Positions 2,012-27,394 of a stretch of 34,640 nt of DNA are shown here, piece after piece. The stretch spans positions 1 to 34,640 of the forward strand of contig JACQMO010000027.1 in the NCBI GenBank assembly GCA_016203535.1, written 5' to 3'. Below the pieces are notes generated by a model that searched no databases, had not been told where the DNA came from, and saw only the letters and a list, made by a program, of their open reading frames with translations. The number at the start of each line of letters is the position of its first letter. Position 1 is the first letter of the stretch. The translations under genes were made by a program, and so were the position numbers. This DNA is from Candidatus Uhrbacteria bacterium. GTDB taxonomy: Bacteria > Patescibacteriota > Patescibacteriia > 2-12-FULL-60-25.

Positions 2012-2039
2012 AGAAAAAACCCACGAGCGTATCGTGGGT
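2012..2039 (-). terminator. Intrinsic terminator of paralog A
   Basis: On the minus strand an 8-bp stem ACCCACGA/TCGTGGGT with a 5-nt loop is followed by a run of T. It overlaps the TGA that ends the -1 frame of paralog A, so the -1 frame stop is the true end of the transcription unit. That supports the -1 frame as coding. Confidence 0.85.
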
Positions 2040-2467
2040 CAGGTTGCGCGGCTCTTTGCGGCCAGGAGCGTCTGCGCGAGCGTCTGGTCCTTCCCGTGGA
2101 GCTCCATGAGGAACATGCGCTCGATGATCTTCCCGTTCTTCCGGCCCAGCCCGTCCTTGGTATACCGGGTGGGGTCGAGTTGAGTCAGGAAGGCGATCAT
2201 CGCGCTCCTGCGGCCCGCTTCGTCTGCAACCCACTCCGCGTGGAGGAGCAGACGCCCGAGCGCGCGGAGGGCGTCGAGCGGGATGTTCAGGTCGGCCGGG
2301 ATCTTCTTCGATTCCAACTGGGCGAGCAGGACCAGGCGTTCGGCCGCGTCCTCTTCGCTCTCTGTCTCCGCGGGTGGAGGTTCCGGCGGGTCGGGCGGCT
2401 CGGAGCCGTTCGATGGCGCGGGCGGAGCGCTCTGAACCGACGGGGTCAGCTCAGGCGCAACTGCGCT
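2039..2467 (-). CDS. -1 frame extension of paralog A: acidic/proline linker plus C-terminal domain
   Basis: This frame is entered from the 0-frame ORF by a -1 slip on C CCA AAA (2473-2467) and runs 142 codons to TGA at 2041-2039, giving a 429-aa fusion. The first ~45 residues are a P/E/S-rich linker. The last ~97 form a domain (EWVADEAGRRSAMIAFL, DPTRY, RMFLMEL) alignable with the end of paralog C (RWLVDEERLRRAIVSTL, KPDTY, DVFLAEL). The linker is coding-like well upstream of the only plausible internal starts (for example TTG at 2317), there is no SD there, and the stop abuts the terminator. I infer it is made mainly by frameshifting. Independent internal initiation is the alternative. Function is unknown. 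Confidence 0.8.
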   Translation of the reverse strand, partial: SAVAPELTPSVQSAPPAPSNGSEPPDPPEPPPAETESEEDAAERLVLLAQLESKKIPADLNIPLDALRALGRLLLHAEWVADEAGRRSAMIAFLTQLDPTRYTKDGLGRKNGKIIERMFLMELHGKDQTLAQTLLAAKSRAT

Positions 2468-2473
2468 TTTGGG
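2427..2473 (-). promoter_or_regulatory. Programmed -1 ribosomal frameshift signal of paralog A
   Basis: In the 0 frame the codons are GCC CCA AAA GCG, containing the slippery heptamer C CCA AAA (X XXY YYZ) at 2473-2467. After an 8-nt spacer comes a stem: GCGC (2458-2455) pairs with GCGC (2430-2427), CTGA (2454-2451) pairs with TCAG (2435-2432) across a bulged A (2431), and ACC (2446-2444) pairs with GGT (2438-2436) around a 5-nt loop. A purine-rich GAGGG sits 6 nt upstream of the heptamer. The spacing and layout match known bacterial -1 signals such as dnaX, and paralog C repeats them. Confidence 0.85.
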
Positions 2474-3327
2474 GCGATGCCCTCGCCGTTCGGCGCGTCG
2501 CTCGCCGTGGCTTCGGCAGGCGCCGCCGACTCCGCGTCGTCACCGCCCTCTTCCTCGGGGAGGTCCTCGTCGTCGGAGGAATCGGTCAGCTCGAGCACGG
2601 GCTCGGCGGGCGGCGGGGGTTCGATGAACCCGTGCGCCTGGGCGACCTTGGGGCCGATGACGTTCTCCCAGATGTGGTCCAGCGGGATGTGCTCGACGAA
2701 CACCGATGCCGGCGTCGTTTCGAGCAGATCGCGGTCCGCGTAGGACCCCTTCTGCCGCCCGGCGGTGACCGTCGCGCGCAGGAGCTTGGCGAGCTCCGTG
2801 TTGGGGAAGCGAGACGCGATGGTATCGAACCCCACCCCGTCCACGATGTCCTGGTGCGTCACGAGACCGTTGGCGAGCGCGCACTCCAGCATGAACTGGA
2901 GGTGCTGCTTGCTGCGGGCCGGGTTCTTCGACACCGCGTCCGGCTTCCAGAAGCCGGACTCCGTGTGGTAGTTCCAGAGGAGCAGGATCGGCAGGAACAG
3001 GACGCGATCGTCCGGATGGATGTGCGCGACGATCTTCGCGGCCGTATCCTCACGAACCTCGAGCGCGAGCAGGAGCAGCGTCGCGGCGTCCTCGGCGCGG
3101 GCCCGCAGCGCGACCTCCTCCATGAGGTTCGTCGTCGGGCAGAGGATGCGTGCGCGCAGCTTCGGTTCGTTCTTGAGCCCCTCCATGATGATGAGGGGCG
3201 AGAAGTTCCTCACGAAGTCGTAGTCGTCACGGATCCCGATGTCGAGCCCGTGGACGATGACCTCCGAGAGGAACCGCTGTCGACCTTCCGGCAGGTTGGA
3301 TTTGAACGTTTGTCCAGCGTCACTCAT
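2446..3327 (-). CDS. Paralog A, 0-frame product: helical protein of unknown function
   Basis: A 293-aa ORF starting at ATG 3327 behind the SD GGAGGG. Residues 1-240 form a mostly helical domain shared with the next two genes (landmarks: LIIMEGL, KLRARI, ESGFW, VEHIPLDHIWENVI). Residues 241-286 are an acidic, proline/alanine-rich linker. After the heptamer at codons 285-287 the 0 frame reads only six more codons (AQLRLS) and stops at TGA inside the downstream stem. I do not recognise the family. There is no signal peptide or membrane segment, so it is probably cytoplasmic. It has its own promoter (3393-3421). It is likely the short form of a short/long pair; the long form adds the domain encoded at 2467-2039. 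Confidence 0.88.
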   Translation of the reverse strand: MSDAGQTFKSNLPEGRQRFLSEVIVHGLDIGIRDDYDFVRNFSPLIIMEGLKNEPKLRARILCPTTNLMEEVALRARAEDAATLLLLALEVREDTAAKIVAHIHPDDRVLFLPILLLWNYHTESGFWKPDAVSKNPARSKQHLQFMLECALANGLVTHQDIVDGVGFDTIASRFPNTELAKLLRATVTAGRQKGSYADRDLLETTPASVFVEHIPLDHIWENVIGPKVAQAHGFIEPPPPAEPVLELTDSSDDEDLPEEEGGDDAESAAPAEATASDAPNGEGIAPKAQLRLS

Positions 3328-3392
3328 TGTTTGCCCTCCAGTGGCATTCAGGGTGTGATTGAACGGAAGAAGTAAGTAAAAGGTGCCGGTTG

Positions 3393-3421
3393 AGAATGGC
3401 AGAAAACGCCGGGAATGTCAA
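3393..3421 (-). promoter_or_regulatory. Promoter of paralog A
   Basis: -35 TTGACA (3421-3416), 17-nt spacer ending in TTTTCTGC, -10 CATTCT (3398-3393), and a leader of about 60 nt with a strong SD. The paralog B and C promoters share the 17-nt spacing, the T-rich spacer end and a CATNCT -10. Confidence 0.75.
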
Positions 3422-3423
3422 GA

Positions 3424-3580
3424 AAGAGGGGGACGAGCCGAACACCCACAGGTCCTGCCGCGGCCCACCCCCGTCGTCCTCGCCCGTGCTCGGGCTGCGC
3501 GGCGCCGGGGGTCCCCCGTTCCCGCGTCACCCGTGCTGACGCAACTTGTCGTTATCGTTAAAAGAATAGATAGAGCGGGA
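3424..3580. other. GC-rich spacer between paralogs B and A, no gene seen
   Basis: This stretch lies between the paralog B terminator and the paralog A promoter. It is very GC-rich, with short palindromes (for example CCCGTGCTCGGG). The small ORFs crossing it show no coding character. I see no tRNA, recognised RNA family or regulatory site. Confidence 0.5.
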
Positions 3581-3615
3581 AAATAAAAATCCCCGTGCGA
3601 GCGTGTCGGACGGGG
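3581..3615 (-). terminator. Intrinsic terminator of paralog B
   Basis: On the minus strand a CCCCGT/ACGGGG stem (3615-3591), with an inner CGA/TCG pairing, is followed by ATTTTTATTTT. It begins 16 nt after the paralog B stop. Confidence 0.8.
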
Positions 3616-3631
3616 GGTCGTGAAAGCGGGT

Positions 3632-4357
3632 TCAACGCATGCCCTTCAAGCTCGGGGGCGGCCGAAGGGATTGCGGCGGGAGCTCGGTGATGAGCCCGTG
3701 CGCGAAGGCGATCCGCGGCGCGATGACCTTCCTCCAAAGCGCGTTGATCGGGTAGATCTGGATGAACGCGCGGAAGGTGACTTGGTTGAAAAAGTCCAAG
3801 GCGGTGTAGCACTCACCGCGGCGGCCGCGCGTGACCGTCTCGCGAACGACTCCGGCCATCTTTTTCCGGAAATGGTTCGCGATGACGTCGTACCCGATGT
3901 GTCCCAGGACTTCCTCGGCCGTGACCACGTCGTGGAATATAGCCCGCTCGAGCAAAACGGCCATGTAGTCGAGAACGCGTTGCTGGTATTCCCGGTCGCC
4001 TTTGAGCTCCCAGAAACCGCTCTCGGTGATGAAGGACCAGACGTCGCGCTTCTCGAAGAGATGCGCGCCTTGTGCAGGATCGATGAGTTGTACTACGGCG
4101 TCGGGGGTCGTGATCCCGACGTCGAGCGCGATCTGAAGGATGTCCGCGCAAGATTCCGGCGCGAGCAGGAACGCGATGTGCTCGTTCATTCCGGTGAGCG
4201 CGGTCACGATGCGCGACCGCAATTTCGGATGTTCGCAGAACCCGCGCATGATCATTTGCGGCGTGATCACCGAAAGGAAATGCTCGGGATCCAGGATCCG
4301 CTTTCGGAACCCCTCCGTCAGCAGGTCCTGGAGAAACCGTTCGATCGCTTCATTCAT
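3632..4357 (-). CDS. Paralog B: helical protein of unknown function, no frameshift extension
   Basis: 241 aa from ATG 4357, preceded by AAGGAGGGTAC, which decides this start over upstream in-frame codons. The whole protein aligns with the N-terminal domain of paralogs A and C. Shared blocks are MIMRGF, KLRSRI, ALTGMNEHIAFLL, TESGFW and AFIQIYPINALWRKVI; the last matches A at VFVEHIPLDHIWENVI. The family is unrecognised and the protein is soluble by appearance. It ends about 10 residues after the shared domain with a short proline-rich tail. It has no CCCAAAA heptamer, no linker and no C-terminal domain, and a terminator follows within 20 nt, so it is a natural counterpart of the short forms of A and C. 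Confidence 0.88.
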   Translation of the reverse strand: MNEAIERFLQDLLTEGFRKRILDPEHFLSVITPQMIMRGFCEHPKLRSRIVTALTGMNEHIAFLLAPESCADILQIALDVGITTPDAVVQLIDPAQGAHLFEKRDVWSFITESGFWELKGDREYQQRVLDYMAVLLERAIFHDVVTAEEVLGHIGYDVIANHFRKKMAGVVRETVTRGRRGECYTALDFFNQVTFRAFIQIYPINALWRKVIAPRIAFAHGLITELPPQSLRPPPSLKGMR

Positions 4358-4406
4358 GTACCCTCCTTGTCGAGAATGAACGGAAGCGCCTGAAATGTGC
4401 CAGGGG

Positions 4407-4435
4407 AGCATGGCAAAAAAATGCGTCACTGTCAA
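4407..4435 (-). promoter_or_regulatory. Promoter of paralog B
   Basis: -35 TTGACA (4435-4430), 17-nt spacer ending TTTTTTTGC, -10 CATGCT (4412-4407), and a leader of about 43 nt with a strong SD. The layout matches the paralog A and C promoters. Confidence 0.75.
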
Positions 4436-4447
4436 GCGTTCGGGCAG

Positions 4448-4472
4448 AAAAAAATCCGCGATGGCTCGCGGA
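4448..4472 (-). terminator. Intrinsic terminator of paralog C
   Basis: On the minus strand a TCCGCGA/TCGCGGA stem with a 4-nt loop is followed by seven T. It lies 12 nt past the TAA of the -1 frame, about 680 nt after the 0-frame stop. The -1 frame is therefore part of the same transcription unit. Confidence 0.85.
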
Positions 4473-4484
4473 GAGGGGAGATCC

Positions 4485-5159
4485 TTATCGGGATGACACC
4501 GGACGCCGCGGGGGCGCCGGTCGTGACGGCGGGGATTCCCGGCGAAGACGGTCCGCCACGGCCATGAGCGCGGGCGTAATCGCCAGTTCGGCGAGGAACA
4601 CGTCGCAGAGCTCCGGAAGTTCGGTGGTTTTCCAGGGGCCGTCCGACCCGTAGGTGTCGGGCTTGATCCGTTGGAGCGTGGAGACGATGGCTCTTCGGAG
4701 GCGTTCCTCGTCCACGAGCCACCGGCCTTCGAGCATGAGGGTCTTCAGATCGCCGGCTTCCTCCTCGGTCGTTTCGTCGGAGAACTGGAGCCCCAACTCG
4801 TCCTCGATCTGGATGAGGTAGTTGAACGCAATGAGGGACGATCCGGATGACCTCGGGGCGTCCGGCGGATCGGTGATGGGCTTGCCGCGGGCCGCGTCGA
4901 ACGCGCTGTCCGGAATGCGCGGGACGTCCTCGCGCGGGTCGCCGTCCGGCGCGTCATAGCCCATGTCTTCGAGCTCCAGCTCTTCGAGGCCGAGACCGTC
5001 GTCGTCGACTTCTTCGGTTTCCAGTTCCGGCGTCGCCTGTGACGGAGGGGGATCGTCCGCCGGCGGACGGGTCGTCTCGCGTTCAAAGACGTCTTCAGGC
5101 GGATGCTTCGGCGCTCTGCCCGGCTCCGTGTGGAGCTCGGCGGCAGGCGCCTCTAGGCT
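4485..5159 (-). CDS. -1 frame extension of paralog C: long acidic linker plus C-terminal domain
   Basis: Entered by a -1 slip on C CCA AAA (5165-5159), this frame runs 224 codons to TAA at 4487-4485, for a 484-aa fusion with the 260 codons upstream. The first ~125 residues are a linker rich in P, E and D (for example LGLEELELED). The following ~95 contain the domain shared with paralog A (RWLVDEERLRRAIVSTL, KPDTY, DVFLAEL). A basic/proline tail closes the protein. The frame happens to be open upstream of the slip site too, but there it reads arginine-rich antisense-like noise while the 0 frame carries the conserved domain. No SD-supported internal start is evident. Function is unknown. Confidence 0.8.
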   Translation of the reverse strand, partial: SLEAPAAELHTEPGRAPKHPPEDVFERETTRPPADDPPPSQATPELETEEVDDDGLGLEELELEDMGYDAPDGDPREDVPRIPDSAFDAARGKPITDPPDAPRSSGSSLIAFNYLIQIEDELGLQFSDETTEEEAGDLKTLMLEGRWLVDEERLRRAIVSTLQRIKPDTYGSDGPWKTTELPELCDVFLAELAITPALMAVADRLRRESPPSRPAPPRRPVSSR

Positions 5160-5165
5160 TTTGGG
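5110..5165 (-). promoter_or_regulatory. Programmed -1 ribosomal frameshift signal of paralog C
   Basis: 0-frame codons TCC CCA AAA GCC TAG contain the heptamer C CCA AAA (5165-5159), and the 0-frame stop is the second codon after it. After a 7-nt spacer: GGCGC (5151-5147) pairs with GCGCC (5114-5110), CTGCC (5146-5142) pairs with GGCAG (5120-5116) with one bulged A (5115), and GCTCC (5136-5132) pairs with GGAGC (5127-5123) closing an ACAC loop. That makes 15 pairs, mostly G-C. The lower stem has the same order and bulge as in paralog A, with a compensatory change (CTGA/TCAG in A, CTGC/GCAG here). Confidence 0.87.
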
Positions 5166-5938
5166 GAGGATTTCTCGAACCCCATCGCCTGTTCGGCCGC
5201 GTCCACGATGCCGGAGAGCTCCGCGATCGGGATGTGGCGAAGGATGAGGGCGGGCGTCGCGATCGAGAGGATCCGCTTCGAACCGAACGGTTCGTTCGGC
5301 TTCACCTTTTCGAGCGCAAGCATCGCTTCGTCGATCGCCATGCGCGTTTCGACGGGGATGCGCGTCTGCCAGCTCCGGCGGTCGATGGACCACAGGAAGT
5401 CGAGCGGGGTCAGGATCGGTTTTACGTTCCCGTCCCCGCGTTCCTTCATGAGCGCATCGATGAGACGCGCGATGATTTCCTGATGCGGCTCGGCATTGTC
5501 GTTCCACGGCATGCGCTCGCGGAAGAGCCACCAGAATTTCCGCGCATCCATGTAGACGACCAGGGTCGTGATGTGGAACGCGGATTCCCAACGCTCCAGA
5601 GGGGTTGCCCCGCACTCGACCGCCAGATCGATCAGGTTCGTCTGGTCTTGCGGCGTCATGCGCCGCGCCGCCATCGGAAGGTAGCCGGTCAGCTCGGTCG
5701 TGATTTTCTGACGCAGATCCGGGCGTTCACCGAACGCGGTCATGCGCTCTGCGGTCGGGAACGCGTCGCGGAGCATCGCGGGCGACCACCAGTCGAGCGA
5801 GAGCAGCCGGAGCGTCTCGAGAAGCTCGGCGACGATCTGGAGCGCCGGTCGCGCGCTCAAATACGCGGCGCCTTCCTTGTGCAGCGCGTCATCGGTTTTC
5901 TTCGCGGCATCGGTATGAACAAGTCCGGTTGCGGCCAT
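5153..5938 (-). CDS. Paralog C, 0-frame product: helical protein of unknown function
   Basis: 261 aa from ATG 5938, chosen because GAAGGAGG sits 5 nt upstream; the in-frame GTG at 5953 overlaps that SD. It is the most diverged member of the A/B/C family but keeps the blocks DLRQKI, ELTGYLPMAARRM, a KFWWLF segment where A and B have ESGFW, and LILRHIPIAELSGIV. The ORF ends in SSPKA directly at the slippery heptamer with TAG, so unshifted ribosomes release a protein lacking the linker and C-terminal domain. It has no signal peptide and a good promoter of its own immediately after the aldolase gene. Function is unknown. Confidence 0.85.
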   Translation of the reverse strand: MAATGLVHTDAAKKTDDALHKEGAAYLSARPALQIVAELLETLRLLSLDWWSPAMLRDAFPTAERMTAFGERPDLRQKITTELTGYLPMAARRMTPQDQTNLIDLAVECGATPLERWESAFHITTLVVYMDARKFWWLFRERMPWNDNAEPHQEIIARLIDALMKERGDGNVKPILTPLDFLWSIDRRSWQTRIPVETRMAIDEAMLALEKVKPNEPFGSKRILSIATPALILRHIPIAELSGIVDAAEQAMGFEKSSPKA

Positions 5939-5986
5939 CGTGGCCTCCTTCACTGGTCAAGCTCCTTGTTGGGAATGTGCGGGTTG

Positions 5987-6015
5987 AGGATGGCAAAAAA
6001 TGTCCGTCGCGTCAA
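5987..6015 (-). promoter_or_regulatory. Promoter of paralog C
   Basis: -35 TTGACG (6015-6010), 17-nt spacer ending CATTTTTTGC, -10 CATCCT (5992-5987), and a leader of about 45 nt. It starts 12 nt after the aldolase stop. The segment TTTTTTGCCAT followed by N and CTC is nearly identical to the paralog B promoter. Confidence 0.75.
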
Positions 6016-6027
6016 GGGATGCCCGGT

Positions 6028-6948
6028 TCACCGCACACGACCGTCGCTGCCGAAGAGTTTCATTTTTTTCATCGCGACCTCGCGCATGAGGAGGGTCGCC
6101 GGTTCGAGGAGCTTGCGCGGATCGATGACCTTCGGGAGATCATCCACCGCCTCGCGGACGCCGGCCGTAAACGCCAATCTCAAATCCGTATCGATGTTGA
6201 TTTTCGCGACACCGTTCCGGATGGCGGCGCGGATGTCCGCATCGAGCACGCCGCGGGCTTCGCCGAGTTTGGCGCCATGAGACTCGGCGATTTTTTTCAC
6301 GTCTTCCCGGACGCCGGACGCGCCGTGGAGCACGAGCGGAAGCTTCACGAGACCCGCGATCCGTTTCAGCCGGGCGATGTCGAGATGGGTCTTTCCTTTG
6401 AACTTGAACGCGCCGTGCGACGTGCCGATGGCGATCGCGAGCGAATCGCAACCCGTTTTCTCCGCGAACCGGGCGGCTTCGTCCGGGTTGGTGAGCTTGG
6501 CGTCCTTCTCCTCGACGCTCACGAAATCCTCGATGCCGGCGAGCGCGCCGATCTCCGCTTCAACGGAAACGCCTTTCGCATGGGCGAGCCGGACGACGGT
6601 CTTCGTGATCGCGACGTTTTTCCGATACGGGAGCGCCGATCCGTCCATCATGACCGAGCTGTACCCGTGCGCGAGCGCCATCTTCACGTACCGGAGTTCC
6701 TTGCCGTGGTCCAGATGCATGACGACCGGGATCTTTCCGGCCGCCGCGACGCGGATCATGGCCGAAAGATACTCGATGCCGGCATAGTCGATTGCGCCCT
6801 CCGAGGTTTGCAGGATCACGGGCGACCGCATCTTCTCGGCCGCGGACATGACCGCCTTGAGGACTTCCAGATTGTTCACGTTGAACGCGGGGACGGCGTA
6901 GTTTTTTGCGCGCGCTGGGATGAGCAGTTTTTTTGCGGGGACGAGCAT
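6028..6948 (-). CDS. fba: Class II fructose-1,6-bisphosphate aldolase
   Basis: 306 aa, the normal size for class II aldolases, which cleave fructose-1,6-bisphosphate to DHAP and glyceraldehyde-3-phosphate using zinc. Visible hallmarks are YAVPAFNVNN (17-26), the catalytic Asp and zinc His in HLDHG (D80, H81), VEAEIG (130-135), zinc His H178 in GTSHGA, H208 in LHGASG, and a C-terminal phosphate-binding NIDTDLR. It follows the PfkB kinase after 9 nt and is the last gene of the sugar operon. No terminator is visible after it; the paralog C promoter follows at once. A tagatose-bisphosphate aldolase role is possible within this family but less likely given the context. Confidence 0.93.
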   Translation of the reverse strand: MLVPAKKLLIPARAKNYAVPAFNVNNLEVLKAVMSAAEKMRSPVILQTSEGAIDYAGIEYLSAMIRVAAAGKIPVVMHLDHGKELRYVKMALAHGYSSVMMDGSALPYRKNVAITKTVVRLAHAKGVSVEAEIGALAGIEDFVSVEEKDAKLTNPDEAARFAEKTGCDSLAIAIGTSHGAFKFKGKTHLDIARLKRIAGLVKLPLVLHGASGVREDVKKIAESHGAKLGEARGVLDADIRAAIRNGVAKINIDTDLRLAFTAGVREAVDDLPKVIDPRKLLEPATLLMREVAMKKMKLFGSDGRVR

Positions 6949-11505: not shown

Positions 11506-12303
11506 TCAATTCACGACGTTGATGGTGCCCTGCATCACCGGATGGATGCCGCACGCATAGTCGAACGATCCCGTCGCGCTGAACGTCCGCGTGTATGACT
11601 GTCCGGGTTGCAGCGTGCCGGAATCGAACGCGCTTCCCGTGACCGTGTGGGGGACGATGTCCCGGTTCGTCCAGGTGACGGTCTTGCCTTTTTTGACGGT
11701 CGTCGATGTCGGCACGAACCCGTTCGAGACGCTGCCGATCGTGATCGTCACCAGGGTCTCGTCGAACTGCTTGTCCGTCGCGATGTTCGGGGTGAGCGTC
11801 ATGACATTCGCGGCATTGTAATCGGCCGACGTTTCAAGCGCCGTGCCCACCTTGTAGTTCACGAAGAACGCGTCCGGCACGTCTTCAATCTTTTGTTTCC
11901 AGTTGAGCCCGAAGAGCGTCTCCGCGAGCTGTTCCGTCTTGACCCAGCGGAGCACGCCGCCCTGGTCCACCGCGTACACTTTCGGATCCGTCGTGATCTT
12001 CACCATCTTCACGCCCGGGCGGTATGTCACGTTCGAGGTGCCGAGCGGGATCGCGCCGAGCAAATTATCCGGGATCATTTTGACGCCAGAAAAGTCGGCA
12101 TACCAGGTGAAATACGTCTTTTCGTTGGGGAAGACGTACCGGCGGCCGTCCGGGGAGTAATAATAGACCGTGTTCACGGTTTCGCCGCGAATGAGGTCTC
12201 CGGTCGAAAAGGCGCTCGTCGTCGCGGCATGGCCGGCGAACGGGAGCGCGAGTGAAGCGGCGCCGAGAAGAGCGGCGCCGGCACGCAGGAGTTTTTTGCG
12301 CAT
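11506..12303 (-). CDS. Secreted protein: shared surface domain plus blue-copper cupredoxin domain
   Basis: 265 aa. The N-terminus MRKKLLRAGAALLGAASLAL followed by GHAA is a clear signal peptide. Residues ~30-165 are a domain found four times in this window (VYYYSPDGRRYVFPNEKTYF, YRPGVKMVKITTDPKVYAVD, LRWVKTEQLAETLFG, DAFFVNYKVG). Residues ~180-265 are a plastocyanin-like domain with type 1 copper ligand candidates H219 (VPHTV), C251, H254 and M257 (CGIHPVM). It is likely exported, binding copper at the cell surface; electron transfer or copper handling are both possible. A promoter lies upstream and an intrinsic terminator downstream. No SD precedes the ATG. Confidence 0.87.
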   Translation of the reverse strand: MRKKLLRAGAALLGAASLALPFAGHAATTSAFSTGDLIRGETVNTVYYYSPDGRRYVFPNEKTYFTWYADFSGVKMIPDNLLGAIPLGTSNVTYRPGVKMVKITTDPKVYAVDQGGVLRWVKTEQLAETLFGLNWKQKIEDVPDAFFVNYKVGTALETSADYNAANVMTLTPNIATDKQFDETLVTITIGSVSNGFVPTSTTVKKGKTVTWTNRDIVPHTVTGSAFDSGTLQPGQSYTRTFSATGSFDYACGIHPVMQGTINVVN

Positions 12304-12383: not shown

Positions 12384-13790
12384 TCAGTAGGCGGAGGTAA
12401 CCGTGACTACCGTGTCGTCGTTCGTCGCCGAAAGTCCGAGGGTGTCCGTCGCCCGGCCGTTGAAGTGCAGGGCGCCGACCGATGGCCAGGGGCCGGTCAC
12501 CATGCTGCACGGCGATGCTCCCTGGCAGGTTTTGATGACCGCGCCGTCCTTCAGGATGTCAATCATCGTGATCCCGTCGTCGTCGCTCGCCATTACCGTC
12601 ACATCCACCGTCTCGCCCGTGTAGATGGAGGATTTGCCCACCGCGACCGTGACGAAGGGCGTGTCGTTCGTGCCGACCGTGATCGTCTTGTGCGGGGTTT
12701 GGTAGGTGCGGCCGATGGTATCGGTGACGAGCCCGTAAAAATCGTAGACCGTTCCGACGGCGCCCGTAAGCGGATCGCTCCAGCGGCATTGGCGGATCCC
12801 GGAGGCGCACGCTTTCACCGAGACGCTGTCGCGGTAGATGTCCGTCCGGAGCACGGCGACGGAAGCGTCCGCGTCGACGATTGCGCTTCCCACCTGTCCC
12901 TGGCGGATGATGGGCCGTTCGATGGTGAGTCTGGCGAGCGCGCTGGCGCTCGTATCGAGCGGGACGGTGATGAGTTTTTCGAACGTGTCGGTATTCACGG
13001 CGATCGCTTTCGCGCGCGCTTCATAGGACGACTTGGTTCCGGAAATCGGCACCGTGGCTTCCCCCGTGCAGGTCGTCGAATTGCAGGTTTGGATGAGGCT
13101 GCCGTCGAAATACAGTTCGATTTTCGCGATGCCGCTCGTGCTCGATGCCGACGCGGTCAGTGTTTCGACGTCGCCTGCGCGGACCATGGCTTTTGAGACG
13201 GAGAATTGGATCCCGCCGGTGCTCGTTGGGGCGGGCGTCGGAGTCGGTACAGGCGCCGGTGCGGGCGCCGGTGCGGTGAGCGTCGCCTGGATCGTCGGCG
13301 CGGCATCGCGGAGCGCCGTCCGGTCGTAGTCGCCCGCGGAAGAAACTTCCGCGCCGAGCATATAATTGATGAAGAACGGGTCCGGGATGTCATCCACCTG
13401 CGTGGCCCAGTCGGCGCCGTACAGTTCCTTCGCGACTTGTTCCGTCTTGATCCAGCGAAGCTGATTGCCCGGGCCGATGGCGTAGACCTTGGGATCGGTC
13501 GTGATCTTCACGAGTTTCACGCCGGGTCGGTACGTCGCGTTTCCGCCGATCATGAGCGCGCCGAGTTCGGCGTCCGTGACCGTTTTGACCGAGGAAAAAT
13601 CCGCGTACCAGGTGAGGTACGTTTTTTCGGTCGGGAACACGTATCGTTTTCCGTTTTCCGCGTAATAGTACACGCTCGGGCCGGACGCCTTCACAAGATC
13701 GCCGGGCGTGAGCGTCGCGGCAGAGGAGGTCGCCGCGGCGAGGAGGCCGAGAAGGGACAGGGCGGAGAGGAGAAATGGGCGAAGAGGCAT
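12384..13790 (-). CDS. Secreted protein: shared surface domain plus three cysteine-paired Ig-like repeats
   Basis: 468 aa from ATG 13790, the start that places a proper signal peptide (MPLRPFLLSALSLLGLLAAA) at the N-terminus; the frame is open to 13856. Residues ~25-145 are the shared surface domain (VYYYAENGKRYVFPTEKTYL, YRPGVKLVKITTDPKVYAI). A Pro/Ala/Thr linker follows (about 175-195). Then come three Ig-like repeats of about 90 residues, each with a short Cys pair after a D-G/S turn: LIQTCNSTTCTGE, VKACASGIRQCRW, VIKTCQGASPCSM. The cysteines probably form local disulfides outside the cell. Function is unknown; a surface adhesin or structural role is the simplest reading. Confidence 0.85.
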   Translation of the reverse strand: MPLRPFLLSALSLLGLLAAATSSAATLTPGDLVKASGPSVYYYAENGKRYVFPTEKTYLTWYADFSSVKTVTDAELGALMIGGNATYRPGVKLVKITTDPKVYAIGPGNQLRWIKTEQVAKELYGADWATQVDDIPDPFFINYMLGAEVSSAGDYDRTALRDAAPTIQATLTAPAPAPAPVPTPTPAPTSTGGIQFSVSKAMVRAGDVETLTASASSTSGIAKIELYFDGSLIQTCNSTTCTGEATVPISGTKSSYEARAKAIAVNTDTFEKLITVPLDTSASALARLTIERPIIRQGQVGSAIVDADASVAVLRTDIYRDSVSVKACASGIRQCRWSDPLTGAVGTVYDFYGLVTDTIGRTYQTPHKTITVGTNDTPFVTVAVGKSSIYTGETVDVTVMASDDDGITMIDILKDGAVIKTCQGASPCSMVTGPWPSVGALHFNGRATDTLGLSATNDDTVVTVTSAY

Positions 13791-13799
13791 AAATGGAAA

Positions 13800-13825
13800 T
13801 AGTCCCTGAACAGGTCGAGGGGCTA
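13800..13825. repeat. Short palindromic intergenic repeat (TAGTCCCT / AGGGGCTA)
   Basis: TAGTCCCT and AGGGGCTA flank a 10-nt centre and can pair (one G-U). The sequence resembles the CCCTTCGACAGGCTCAGGG-type palindromes scattered between genes in many bacterial genomes. It sits just upstream of the secreted-protein ATG. Confidence 0.45.
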
Positions 13826-13887
13826 CCTTGAACAAGGGTTGCTCATACGATACCAAAAAAACGCGTTGATGTCGTCTGGTTCAGTGT

Positions 13888-21887: not shown

Positions 21888-24287
21888 CTACAGACTTTGA
21901 TCGATCGTGAGCGCGACGGCTTGTTCCGCGGTGACGCTATAGTCCGATGCCGAGTTGATGTCCGCGCCGAACGCGTAGTTCACGTAGAAAGCATCGGAGA
22001 TGTCGTCGATTTTTTTGTTCCAGTCGGAGCCGTAAAGCGCCGTGGCGATCCCCTCGGTTTTCACCCAGCGGAGCACGCCGTTCTTCGCGACGGCATAGAC
22101 GTTGTTCACGGTGGTGAATTTCACCATGCGGACACCGGGGCGATAGGTGACGTTCTTGCCGAGGGTCATGCTTGAAAGGGTCGCAAGCGGAACCTCCGTG
22201 ACCGTGTCGAAATTGGCATACCAGGTGAAGTACACCTGTGAATTTGGGAAGGCATGACGCTTGCAGTCCTGCCCATAGTAATATACCGCGCTGTCTTCCT
22301 GCGTTTCTGCATTTCCGTCATTCGGGAGCTTCACGAGCGTGCCGACCGAGAGCGGACAGTTGTTCGGGTTGGGGGTCGGGGTGGGGGGCGGCGGCGGAGG
22401 TGTTTCTGTTGCCGTGAACGTGATTGCCGCGGTACCCAGTGTGATCGAATCGGCCGTCGCCGTCAGGGTTGATGAACCGGCCGTCGAGGACTTCACCGTG
22501 AACGTCGCCTGACCAGAGCCATTTGTCGTCCCCATGGTCGCTGCAATCGTGTCGGTCGAGCCCCGAGAAGAGGCAAGCGAAACCGTTTTTCCCGACAATT
22601 CCTGTCCGCTCATGTTTTTTACCGTGACCGTGATCGTCGAGATGCTTGATCCGTCTGCTGCGACTGACGCGGGGTTCGGTGAAACGACGGACGCGCTCGC
22701 CGATGGTGTCGTATCCGCTGGTGGTGGGGGAGGCGTCGTGATTGTCATCGTCGTCATCCCGCTCGATCCTTCATTCCCGGCGTTATCGATGCATTTCACT
22801 TCAACCTGATAGGTCCCGACAGTTGCGAAGGTATACGTAATGGATGCCTGGCCGCCGGCGACGGTCATGTCCGGTTTCCCGGCGTCCGGATAAAACGCGC
22901 AGCTCTTGATGCCGCTCGCATCGCTCACGTTCGAGGTGAACATCGTGGCGGAACCGGCCACCGCCGTGACGGGGGAGATGGCGCCGATCGCGGGAGATGT
23001 CGTATCCAAGACGAATGCGAGGCTTGCGGTTTCAACATTGCCGCCCTTATCAATCGCCTCGATGAAGACCGTGTAACTTTGCTCCGCGAGCGGGTTCCCG
23101 GTCGGTACCGTCCAGGTCGTGCTGGCCCCGGGGATTTGTGCGCTGATGTCGGAGTTGCCGTTGCTGTTGCCGTTCACGATCACATTGTAGACAGAGATTC
23201 CCGTCTCATTGTCGATCGCGGGACTCCAGGTGAATGTCGGCGTCGAATCGCTATTCGGCGTCCCTCCGGTGATGGCGAGATTGGTTACGGCGCCTGGCTT
23301 CACGGCATCAAATCGGACGATTTTTCCCCCGCCTCCCACCATGAATTTATCTGTCGAGCTTTTGAGATGCGTGCCGTTCCAGTGGTTTGAGAATGATGTA
23401 AGCGGGCCCTTTTGCTGCCACGTCACTCCATTATCCGTACTTTCAAAGAAATAGCCATTCTGGGCCGTAATGACCAAATCTTGAGGAGATTTTCGGTGGA
23501 TGTCGAGCAAATCCGTTGTCGAGGGAGCAGGGGTACTTGGATTATTGGTCCATGTGAGCGTTGACGCGGTCCACGAGGTTCCGTTCGGTGACGTTGCAAA
23601 CGTTAAATCATCACCGACGGCAAAGTAGTCATCGCCCAATATCGTAGCCGTTAAATCCTGAGCCGTCGGCGTATAGGTTGTAAACGTGGCGTCATCAAGG
23701 TCGGGCTTTGTGGCGTTGGTTACCCTCACTATTTTTCCATCGTCACCGACGATATAGCCGATGATGTAATCCGGGATGAACCAGGTGTCGCGCCAAACGC
23801 CGGTCACCGTTTTTTCCTGCCAGCTTGTTCCATCAAGCGTGCGGACAACCGTGTTGTTTCCGACGGCCCATACATTCGTTGTACCGTTCACGTAAATGCC
23901 GTAGAGCGGCTGGGCGCTGTCATAGGCGAGCGTCCAGTTCGCTCCCGCATCGGTCGTTTTGCGGATCTTTCCATCGTTCGTCGCCATGTAGGCGGTTTGA
24001 TTCTGGTTCCAGGCAAACCCGATCCCTTGGTGGGTTTGCGCGATGCTCCCGACGACCGAGACGGTCCAGGTTTTTCCGCCGTCGCTTGTCCGGGAAATGA
24101 TTCCTGAACCGCCGACGGCGATTCCATAAACTCCGTCTTGGGAAAACGCAACTTTGTTAAGAGCGATCGTCGTGCCGGAAGAGACTTCGCCCCAACCGGC
24201 GGCCAGGGCTGGCAGGGCGCTCGTGAGCGCCAGAAGGGACACGCCGAATCCTGTCACGACACGGGAGAGGAATTTGGAGGATTTCAT
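21888..24287 (-). CDS. Large secreted protein: propeller, FN3/PKD-like and Big_1 domains, shared surface domain
   Basis: 799 aa with a signal peptide (MKSSKFLSRVVTGFGVSLLA then ALPALAAG). Residues ~30-330 are YCF48/BNR-like propeller blades with repeated SDGGKTW, TDAGANW and TDNGVTW signatures. Next come an FN3-like domain (~335-430), a PKD-like domain with two cysteines (~435-525) and a Big_1 Ig-like domain (~535-640). A proline linker leads to the C-terminal shared domain (~650-785: VYYYGQDCKRHAFPNSQVYF, YRPGVRMVKF, LRWVKTEGIATALYG). It should be exposed on the cell surface; ligand unknown. It is a tandem paralog of the next gene. -10 TATAGT lies 8 nt before the ATG without an SD. Confidence 0.87.
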   Translation of the reverse strand: MKSSKFLSRVVTGFGVSLLALTSALPALAAGWGEVSSGTTIALNKVAFSQDGVYGIAVGGSGIISRTSDGGKTWTVSVVGSIAQTHQGIGFAWNQNQTAYMATNDGKIRKTTDAGANWTLAYDSAQPLYGIYVNGTTNVWAVGNNTVVRTLDGTSWQEKTVTGVWRDTWFIPDYIIGYIVGDDGKIVRVTNATKPDLDDATFTTYTPTAQDLTATILGDDYFAVGDDLTFATSPNGTSWTASTLTWTNNPSTPAPSTTDLLDIHRKSPQDLVITAQNGYFFESTDNGVTWQQKGPLTSFSNHWNGTHLKSSTDKFMVGGGGKIVRFDAVKPGAVTNLAITGGTPNSDSTPTFTWSPAIDNETGISVYNVIVNGNSNGNSDISAQIPGASTTWTVPTGNPLAEQSYTVFIEAIDKGGNVETASLAFVLDTTSPAIGAISPVTAVAGSATMFTSNVSDASGIKSCAFYPDAGKPDMTVAGGQASITYTFATVGTYQVEVKCIDNAGNEGSSGMTTMTITTPPPPPADTTPSASASVVSPNPASVAADGSSISTITVTVKNMSGQELSGKTVSLASSRGSTDTIAATMGTTNGSGQATFTVKSSTAGSSTLTATADSITLGTAAITFTATETPPPPPPTPTPNPNNCPLSVGTLVKLPNDGNAETQEDSAVYYYGQDCKRHAFPNSQVYFTWYANFDTVTEVPLATLSSMTLGKNVTYRPGVRMVKFTTVNNVYAVAKNGVLRWVKTEGIATALYGSDWNKKIDDISDAFYVNYAFGADINSASDYSVTAEQAVALTIDQSL

Positions 24288-24352: not shown

Positions 24353-27300
24353 TCAGAGCTTCCCCGGTCCTAATGGATTGTAACCGCCGTCAAGCTCGGT
24401 CTTGTCCGGGTATCCGTCCCCGTCCGTATCGGCATTTTTCGGGTCCGTGCCGAGCTGTTTCTCCTTCCCGTCGTTCAAGCCGTCGTTGTCCGTATCCGAG
24501 TCCGCCGGATCGGTTCCACCGGCCTTTTCTTCCGAGTCTGGAACGCCGTCTTTGTCGGAATCAGCTACGGGGCAGGCGGGAATCGACGGCCGGAGGGGGC
24601 TCTCCGCGTACCCTTCGATCCGCATAGAGTCGCTCGGCGCCGCGACGGTCCGTTCGGCAATTTCCGGATGGTAGTCCGTCTCGCCGGCGACGTCGTTTCC
24701 GAACACGTAGTTGGTGAAGAAGGCGTCAGAAATGTCGTCGACGTTCTTGTTCCATGCCGACCCGTACAGGGCGATCGCGATCGCCTCGGTCTTGATCCAG
24801 CGCAGCACCCCGCCTTTATCGACCGCATAGACTTTTGGATCGGTTTGGAACTTCACCAGTTTTTTGCCGGGAATATAGGTGACGTTGAGGGAGAGCGGAA
24901 GTTCCGCAAGTTTGTCCGGCACGATGGTTTTCACGTTCGAGAAGTCGCAGTACCAGGTGAAAAAAACGCGTTCGTTGGGGAAGGCGTGGCGTTTCCCGTC
25001 CGCCCCGAGGTAGTACACCGCGCTGTCCTCCTGCGTGTTCGCGTTTCCATCATCGGGAAGTTTCACGATTTCATGGAGGTTGAATCCGGCCGACGAGATT
25101 TTCGTTACCTGCACCGGATCGACTTTTGACGCAAACCCTGCCTTGGCGATCTGTGCCGTCTGCGCTTCTTGTTGTTTTTCGATCAGCTCCTCGGTCACCG
25201 GAACGCTCGGCTTCGTCTCCGGGGCCGGCGTGACGGCTTTTTCCGTAAAGGTGACCGTGGCTCCGAGCGTCGTGCCGTTAAATTTGGCCGTGAGCTGCGC
25301 GGTTCCGGTGGCGGATGACCTGATCATGAACGTCGCCTGGCCCGATGGGTCCGTGACCGCTGAAACGGCGGAGATCGTGTCCGCTGGCCGCGACGAAGAC
25401 AGGACGACGGTTTTGCCCGAGATGGCAGTTCCGCCGGCGTTCTTTACGGTGATCGTGACGAGGGACTTGCTCGTGCCGTCCGCCGGGACGGTCGTCGGGT
25501 CGGCCTTGATTGACGAGGTTGATGTTGCGGCGACGGTATCGGCCGGAGGTGGCGTCACCACCTTCACTTCCGTAAACGTGACGGAGGCGCTCAATGTCAT
25601 CCCGTTCGTTTTCCCCGTGAGCGTCGCGGTCCCGGTCGCGGAAGATTTGACCGTGAACGTGGCCTGTCCCGCCGAATCCGTCGTCGGGCTGACCGCCGTC
25701 ACGGTATCCGACGTCGGCCGCGAGGACGTGAGCGTCACCGTCTTCCCGGACAGCGCTCCGCCGCCGGCGTTCTTCACGATGACGGCAATTTTCGAGGTTG
25801 ACGTATTGTCTGCCTGCACGGAGGTCGGGTCAGCAGAGATGGACGACGTTGACGTCGCGGCCGTCGTATCCGCGACTACGGTTGCGGTGGTCGCATCGCT
25901 ATACGTCACGGCGCCGAAGATGTCGTCACAGCGCATCTGGACCTTGAACGTTCCGGGATTTTTGAAGATGTACGCCTGCGTTGCGACGTTTTTTTCAACC
26001 TTTGCGCTGTCGCCGATCGCACTTTCCACGACCAGCCAGCAGGCCTTGATGCCGTCCGCGTCTTCTGCTTTCGACGAGAAGGTCACCGGCCAGTCTTCCG
26101 TGATGATTTTCTGATCCGGCGCCGGGATGCCGACCGTCGGCGGCGTTGCCTTGACCTCGAATTTCATCGAGGCGGCGGTGGACGTGTTTCCGGCCGCATC
26201 CATGCTCTGGACGTCGCAGGTGTGGGTGCCGTTCGTCAGGCCGGAGGAAACCGACGTGGCCGTTCCGACGTTGCTTAGATTTCCATTAAATCCCGCGTTG
26301 TAGGAAACGACGGACGTCTCACCGTCCGCCGCTGCGGACCATTCGCATGTCACGTTGGGAGACGCGCTTACGGTGCCGCCGCTGGAAAGCTTGAGTCCGC
26401 TGGGGGCGTTGGGGGGAGTGCCGTCGTATCGAAGCAGGGATGAGCCGCCGACCGCGAACCGGTCGCCCAGCGTCTTATACATGACTTGGGTGACATTCCA
26501 CGTGACCTTGCTCGGCATGAGCGTCCATGTTTTTCCGCCGTTCGCGGTTTCGAAAATCACGCCGAAGTCTCCGCCGATCATGAAGGTTTCCGCATCGATC
26601 ATCCGAACCGTGCGGAGGGTGAGCGCTGACGCGATGCCAAGCGGATCCAGAACCGAGGCATTGGCAATATCCTGCCACGAATCGCCGTCGTTCGACGTAT
26701 AGAGGATGGTTCGATTTGCGCCCACGGCCACCCCCCGATGGGTATCGAAGAAATGAACGTCCAAGAGATGCTGTGTGGTAGGCGATTTCAAATTTTTCCA
26801 AACCCCATTCTCGTATCGGAGGATTGTCCCGTTCCAACCGACCGCCCATCCGTGGTCTGCATCGACCATATGGACCGCATTTAAGGCCAGTGCGGTTCCT
26901 GATATCTCGCTTGACCAGCTTGTCCCCCCGTCTTTCGTGCGGAGAATCGTCCCATCCGTTCCGACCGCCCATCCCTCCATGTCGCTCACCATGCTGACAT
27001 CCCACAGCTGGATCGTCGAGGTAATTTTTTCTTTCTCGCTGGGACCGAGGGTGAATTTCGTCCAGTCACCCGTCGTATACACGCTTTTTTTCTCCTCTCC
27101 GACCATCATGAGTCCCTCTCCTTTCACGGGAATGTCAAGACCATAGAGCGTCTTGCCCAATCCCGTATCATTGAGGGTCCACGTTTTTCCTCCGTCGAGC
27201 GTTTGGAGAAATTTTCCGGTTTCGGAGGAAAGCGCGGCTCCGGCATTGCCTTTGGAAGTGAAATCGATATCCGTCGCCGGCGTCGGGATCGAGATCTCCA

Positions 27301-27394
27301 CCCACCCCGCGGCGAGCGCCGGGAGCGCGTTCGGAAGCGCCAAAAGAGACACGACGAGTCCCGTCATGGCGCGAAAAAGTTTCGTATGGTTCAT
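24353..27394 (-). CDS. Giant secreted protein: propeller, Ig-like/Big_1 repeats, shared surface domain, TSP3-type Ca repeats
   Basis: 1013 aa. Signal peptide MNHTKLFRAMTGLVVSLLAL then PALAAG. Residues ~30-325 form a YCF48/BNR-like propeller (LDGGKTW, KDGGTSW, ANGGKTW). Ig-like domains follow (~330-520). Two tandem Big_1 domains (~520-735) are near copies, with SGKTVTLTSSRP / SGKTVVLSSSRP and GQATFTVKSSATGTATL / GQATFMIRSSATGTAQL. The shared surface domain is at ~765-900. The tail has three thrombospondin type 3-like calcium repeats (DSDKDGVPDSEE, DSDTDNDGLNDGKE, DTDGDGYPDKTE). It is probably surface displayed and Ca-stabilised. -10 TATACT lies 9 nt from the ATG without an SD. Confidence 0.88.
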   Translation of the reverse strand: MNHTKLFRAMTGLVVSLLALPNALPALAAGWVEISIPTPATDIDFTSKGNAGAALSSETGKFLQTLDGGKTWTLNDTGLGKTLYGLDIPVKGEGLMMVGEEKKSVYTTGDWTKFTLGPSEKEKITSTIQLWDVSMVSDMEGWAVGTDGTILRTKDGGTSWSSEISGTALALNAVHMVDADHGWAVGWNGTILRYENGVWKNLKSPTTQHLLDVHFFDTHRGVAVGANRTILYTSNDGDSWQDIANASVLDPLGIASALTLRTVRMIDAETFMIGGDFGVIFETANGGKTWTLMPSKVTWNVTQVMYKTLGDRFAVGGSSLLRYDGTPPNAPSGLKLSSGGTVSASPNVTCEWSAAADGETSVVSYNAGFNGNLSNVGTATSVSSGLTNGTHTCDVQSMDAAGNTSTAASMKFEVKATPPTVGIPAPDQKIITEDWPVTFSSKAEDADGIKACWLVVESAIGDSAKVEKNVATQAYIFKNPGTFKVQMRCDDIFGAVTYSDATTATVVADTTAATSTSSISADPTSVQADNTSTSKIAVIVKNAGGGALSGKTVTLTSSRPTSDTVTAVSPTTDSAGQATFTVKSSATGTATLTGKTNGMTLSASVTFTEVKVVTPPPADTVAATSTSSIKADPTTVPADGTSKSLVTITVKNAGGTAISGKTVVLSSSRPADTISAVSAVTDPSGQATFMIRSSATGTAQLTAKFNGTTLGATVTFTEKAVTPAPETKPSVPVTEELIEKQQEAQTAQIAKAGFASKVDPVQVTKISSAGFNLHEIVKLPDDGNANTQEDSAVYYLGADGKRHAFPNERVFFTWYCDFSNVKTIVPDKLAELPLSLNVTYIPGKKLVKFQTDPKVYAVDKGGVLRWIKTEAIAIALYGSAWNKNVDDISDAFFTNYVFGNDVAGETDYHPEIAERTVAAPSDSMRIEGYAESPLRPSIPACPVADSDKDGVPDSEEKAGGTDPADSDTDNDGLNDGKEKQLGTDPKNADTDGDGYPDKTELDGGYNPLGPGKL

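Follow-up and report, generated by a model that had tools for sequence, protein, structure and literature searches.

CsoS2, a protein of alpha-carboxysomes, is a largely disordered scaffold. It is made as two isoforms by means of efficient -1 frameshifting (PMC5009743), and csoS2 is named in a review alongside dnaX and copA; few programmed frameshifts in bacterial genes outside mobile elements are deeply conserved. In the orfAB genes of IS3-family elements such as IS911, the signal is likewise a heptamer followed by a stem-loop (PMC4066793). The motif C_CC.A_AA.A belongs to an efficient class, and in E. coli the stimulator usually begins 5-8 nt downstream (PMC4066793).

Here, we describe a locus of Candidatus Uhrbacteria bacterium (GCA_016203535.1, contig JACQMO010000027.1) in which two of three tandem genes, A and C, very likely carry a conserved programmed -1 frameshift of the dnaX type, as judged from comparison of homologous sequences. 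The window analyzed is the whole stretch from position 1 to 34,640, and the feature region spans 2,012-6,015. As in dnaX (tau/gamma), the heptamer is in phase, a stop comes directly after it, and a hairpin lies a few nucleotides downstream, with an SD-like upstream site in some homologs; the N-terminal part is common to short and long forms, and both frame orientations exist, a reversed dnaX also having been reported (PMC5009743). The locus differs from dnaX in that its heptamer is C_CCA_AAA, that the A/B/C family matches no Pfam or NCBIfam family, and that in most members frameshifting would make the long form. CsoS2 has no sequence match to A or C, and it is the short form of CsoS2 that depends on frameshifting; neither full -1 product (A or C) matched Pfam, CsoS2 included, and the window showed no carboxysome genes. 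Unlike the IS3-family elements, the family has no transposase match and is chromosomal, with a conserved position beside fba. A literature search returned no report joining ribosomal frameshifting with Patescibacteria or the Candidate Phyla Radiation.

Genes A, B, and C and their transcription signals

The three genes are arranged head to tail on the minus strand, with the following features:

2446-3327, minus: gene A, 0-frame product of 293 aa, helical N-domain plus acidic tail (start 3327, stop 2446)
2039-2473, minus: gene A, -1 frame continuation, predicted disordered Pro/Ala/Glu linker plus C-terminal helical domain (full -1 product 429 aa)
2467-2473, minus: gene A, slippery heptamer C_CCA_AAA, in phase
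2427-2458, minus: gene A, predicted stimulatory hairpin, 8 nt past the heptamer (fold z -4.6)
3393-3421, minus: promoter of A by motif match, TTGACATTCCCGGCGTTTTCTGCCATTCT
2018-2040, minus: intrinsic terminator of A, from terminator scan and folding
3632-4357, minus: gene B, 241 aa, helical N-domain only, lacking a -1 extension, with a proline-rich tail at its end
4407-4435, minus: promoter of B by motif match, TTGACAGTGACGCATTTTTTTGCCATGCT
3582-3615, minus: intrinsic terminator of B, a 9-bp stem with one mismatch followed by a U-tract (fold z -3.2), missed by the scan
5153-5938, minus: gene C, 0-frame product of 261 aa, helical N-domain (start 5938, stop 5153)
4485-5165, minus: gene C, -1 frame continuation, predicted disordered acidic linker of ~110 residues plus C-terminal five-helix domain (full -1 product 484 aa)
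5159-5165, minus: gene C, slippery heptamer C_CCA_AAA, in phase, with the 0-frame stop TAG one codon on
5110-5151, minus: gene C, predicted stimulatory hairpin, 7 nt past the heptamer (-30.5 kcal/mol, z -3.7)
5987-6015, minus: promoter of C by motif match, TTGACGCGACGGACATTTTTTGCCATCCT
4455-4472, minus: intrinsic terminator of C, from terminator scan and folding
6028-6948, minus: fba (class II aldolase-like), conserved upstream neighbor of the family gene

A sequence-only reading had proposed that A, B, and C are paralogs with a common N-domain of about 240 residues, and alignment and profile searches agree: A and B align over ~230 residues (31%, E 5e-34), and a profile of C N-domains retrieves A (5e-10) and B (2e-7). 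The 48 N-domains placed in a tree separate into an A/B-type and a C-type clade. The same reading credited each gene with a separate TTGAC-type promoter, a strong SD, and an intrinsic terminator, all of which were recovered, by a genome-wide motif scan, direct reading of the sequence, and terminator scanning or folding, respectively. The pattern TTGAC-N16-GCCATNCT, which was derived from the same three sites that it matches, has exactly three matches in the 811-kb genome, one ahead of each gene, where by our estimate ~0.5 would be expected by chance; reversed-pattern controls gave none. Each promoter consists of a -35 TTGACR, a 17-nt spacer, and a -10 CATNCT with TGC just before it, and a generic sigma-70 scan called no promoter for A, B, or C because this -10 is not TATAAT-like. 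The SDs of A, B, and C are GGAGGG, AAGGAGGG, and AAGGAGG. The further proposal that separate units mean different expression levels or conditions is not supported: the same specific motif, spaced identically, stands before all three genes, which suggests that they are co-regulated rather than differently expressed. A looser promoter pattern was non-specific in relatives, so promoter conservation is claimed for this genome only.

Elsewhere in the window, four predicted secreted proteins (11506-12303, 12384-13856, 21888-24287, and 24353-27394, all minus strand) have by eye a common domain of ~110 residues, VYYYxxDGKRYVFPNExxYFTWYxDFS...RPGxKMVKxxTDPKVYAV...RWVKTE, in differing contexts.

The slip site, the hairpin, and the -1 frame

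In A (2473) and C (5165), frame 0 ends near an in-phase C_CCA_AAA and frame -1 continues via the linker into the C-terminal domain, so the frameshift that had been noticed in two of the three genes stands as a signal. Its layout is the heptamer, a spacer of 7-8 nt, and a stable hairpin, with the 0-frame stop lying inside the spacer in C (TAG) and inside the hairpin in A (TGA). The signal was found in 16 homologs from 15 genomes and six genera. Eleven homologs besides A and C (in G001, G024, G008, G013, G010, G030, G026, G025, G035, G014, and G057) carry CCCAAAAG in phase beside the end of the N-domain ORF, with a stop one or two codons later, and G031 carries AAAAAAAG, which places A_AAA_AAA at the slip-site position; frame 0 ends close by in 13 genes with CCCAAAA and in this A7 variant. 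The 18-nt motif CCCAAAAGNNTRRNGGCG has 10 matches in the 41 genomes of the GTDB family, all at this junction, against one control match, and the version with TAG, CCCAAAAGNNTAGANGCG, has seven in 57 genomes, again all at this junction, with no control match.

The mean hairpin z-score is -2.44 at the junction and -0.29 in windows elsewhere in these genes (n=16, Stouffer -7.7). The signal peaks where the window begins 9-12 nt past the heptamer's first base; individual hairpins are weak in G025, G035, G010c, G030, and G013. A conserved GGCG forms the 5' arm of the stem, and pairing is kept while the letters change (GGCGTC/GACGCC, GGCGCC/GGCGCC, and CGGCATCC/GGATGCCG), the fifth pair, as read from the folds, being T-A, C-G, or A-T depending on the genome. 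An SD-like stimulator would lie 6-17 nt upstream; SD-like pairing there has a family mean of -5.9 versus a background of -3.5 kcal/mol and is weak in C and several others. Two products could in principle arise by transcriptional rather than ribosomal slippage, and the run of seven A in G031 would suit this. However, in every other homolog C3-4 is followed by just four A, bacterial slippage has been described for runs of ~9 A or T (PMC5009743), and neither the hairpin nor its 7-8 nt spacer would be accounted for, so we give this mechanism almost no weight.

Comparison with relatives shows that frame -1 has been kept as coding sequence for a conserved protein. The C-domain of C, encoded in frame -1, is homologous to the 0-frame C-domains of G018 (E 6e-16) and G034, and in the closest pair of homologs (G013/G030) substitutions in the -1 ORF favor the third codon position (104/97/168). 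The source genome is a single draft of 811 kb in 30 contigs, ~88% complete, in which breaks could stem from sequencing or assembly indels or from A and C being decaying pseudogenes; such an origin is exceedingly improbable, as independent genomes from six genera have the same combination of heptamer, close-by stop, and hairpin, and both frames still encode conserved proteins. It is also conceivable that the -1 region is a separate gene, expressed from an internal start or by translational coupling in the absence of frameshifting, and C does have an in-frame ATG at codon 67 of its -1 ORF with GGAG upstream. Yet the -1 ORF of A offers no ATG before the C-domain proper, start sites vary between relatives in which slip site, spacer, and hairpin are conserved, and relatives exist with these domains in a single reading frame, all of which makes a separate gene highly improbable.

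A programmed ribosomal frameshift would thus join the N-domain to what lies in frame -1. The linkers are 74-85% P/A/E/D/S/T/G and acidic and are, judging from this composition, disordered. The C-domain model is modest (pLDDT 66, best structural Z 3.7), and the long form of G024 seems to have no folded C-domain. The frameshift had earlier been taken as a layer of dosage control; dosage control of this kind is supported, but the description is too narrow, because the signal is conserved across genera and would alter protein architecture, adding a linker and, in A and C, a second folded domain.

Distribution, neighbors, and natural variants

The family is present in 25 of the 41 genomes of the source's GTDB family, in none of ~344 genomes from other families of the class, and nowhere outside that GTDB family in a phylum-wide sample of 379 genomes. 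Rather than being spread across Patescibacteria, it is therefore confined there to one GTDB family, with the addition of Polyangia (Myxococcota). When 84,980 species were scanned by pattern, C-type members turned up in two groups only, Patescibacteria and MAGs of Polyangiaceae/Myxococcales type (5-12 Mb, 39-47% identity), and in the class around one matching Myxococcota MAG, 11 of 144 genomes match, several with A-type members; occurrence in Polyangia is patchy. Myxococcota rows fall among Patescibacteria in both clades of the tree, forcing at least three label changes; the tree does not give the direction of transfer. In the Myxococcota proteins that were read, no slip site was present near the end and no C-domain was noticed. 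No homologs were found in viral contigs, phages, or plasmids, and a first contig scan with A alone as query gave no match.

Most patescibacterial copies come after fba in a tkt-pfkB-fba block. At four loci where fba is not adjacent (L050, L062, L064, and L067), the gene adjoins a PfkB-type kinase and a membrane protein ending in poly-Gly-SW, which in L050 is DUF2207 by Pfam. In two Polyangiaceae-type MAGs the family gene is directly upstream of TRAP dctQ and dctM (identified by Pfam in L109 and by resemblance in L107), and in a Myxococcales MAG (L108, 767-4928) two VgrG-type genes lie upstream of it with a universal stress protein gene between. These myxococcal neighbors are inconsistent between loci and gave no function. 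A C-terminal TNPW motif is common to the myxococcal members (L107-L110) and absent from those of Patescibacteria.

Several relatives depart from the canonical junction. Between slip site and stop, one base has been lost in G033 and an extra TG is present in G011a, and in both, frame 0 now encodes the long form while heptamer and hairpin are retained; slipping would there reach a stop within a few codons, giving the short form. With two cases, both from draft genomes, the swap may be an assembly error. In G018, G034, and G021a, both domains are fused in one frame, the slip site is lost, and a homologous C-domain lies in frame 0; B has neither slip site nor extension. Two isoforms are thus not required everywhere.

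The N-domain and a proposed role for two isoforms

AlphaFold models the N-domain of C with high confidence (pLDDT 94.5, pTM 0.89) as entirely helical, in keeping with the helical character first read from the letters. Its helices form four similar units (53-84, 114-142, 178-212, and 220-252), each of two short helices and one longer one, an arrangement that, going by the secondary structure, we take to resemble a superhelical repeat. The domain had been called unassignable, and family and fold searches left it so: Pfam and NCBIfam gave no match above curated cutoffs, PADLOC and PHROGs gave none, PDB sequence profiles gave nothing credible, and no enzyme signature was found in the A/B/C family. 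A DpdD match (NCBIfam, E 9e-6 in C) was dropped, being far under the cutoff and not reproduced in relatives. VIA-align returned partial helical matches only, of which the best is vFLIP, a death effector domain protein (68 residues aligned, Z 6.2), and a RIG-I/MAVS CARD entry scored Z 3.1. A death-fold-like domain, which would be a six-helix Greek-key bundle, with isoforms that serve signaling rather than a scaffold, is nonetheless improbable: Foldseek found no significant match in the PDB or among viral models (best E 0.33), Z below ~13 for helical bundles can reflect a common arrangement, and the alignment is limited to residues 55-130. On architecture and analogy, with no fold match, the N-domain could instead be a protein-binding superhelical scaffold or adaptor, a reading that is quite possible, if a shade on the doubtful side. 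A proline-rich C-terminal tail with K/R (such as PPPLP...K/R), found in 12 of 26 members including B, is possibly a docking motif.

Taken as a whole, the observations are best explained, and we consider this rather likely, by a frameshift-made mixture of isoforms combined with a helical scaffold or adaptor in an undescribed paralog family. At C_CCA_AAA, with the hairpin 7-8 nt downstream, some ribosomes would slip back one base, and we infer that they do so at a substantial rate. A and C would each yield a short form, the N-domain with a short tail, and a long form made of N-domain, disordered acidic linker, and C-terminal helical domain; B would yield the N-domain only, and the near-identical promoters would co-express all three. 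The isoforms would then co-assemble through the N-domain, with only some copies displaying the C-domain, and a fixed short:long ratio would set the number of C-domain-bearing copies per common assembly, much as the isoforms of CsoS2 or DnaX are believed to do.

Patescibacteria and Polyangia are both known for life on or from other bacteria, and the patchy sharing of the family hints at gene exchange between the two. A more far-reaching and unlikely proposal is that Polyangia and an ultra-small bacterial lineage have exchanged an isoform-ratio system, that the short:long balance is under selection, and that the family serves contact between both groups; if the balance itself is selected, two lineages swapped the long-form frame yet kept slip site and hairpin. 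The comparisons made here give good support to a new case of a known recoding mechanism, which lies in an undescribed protein family unexpectedly distributed over two phyla, and the natural frame-swapped, fused, and short-only variants make the isoform-ratio role testable.
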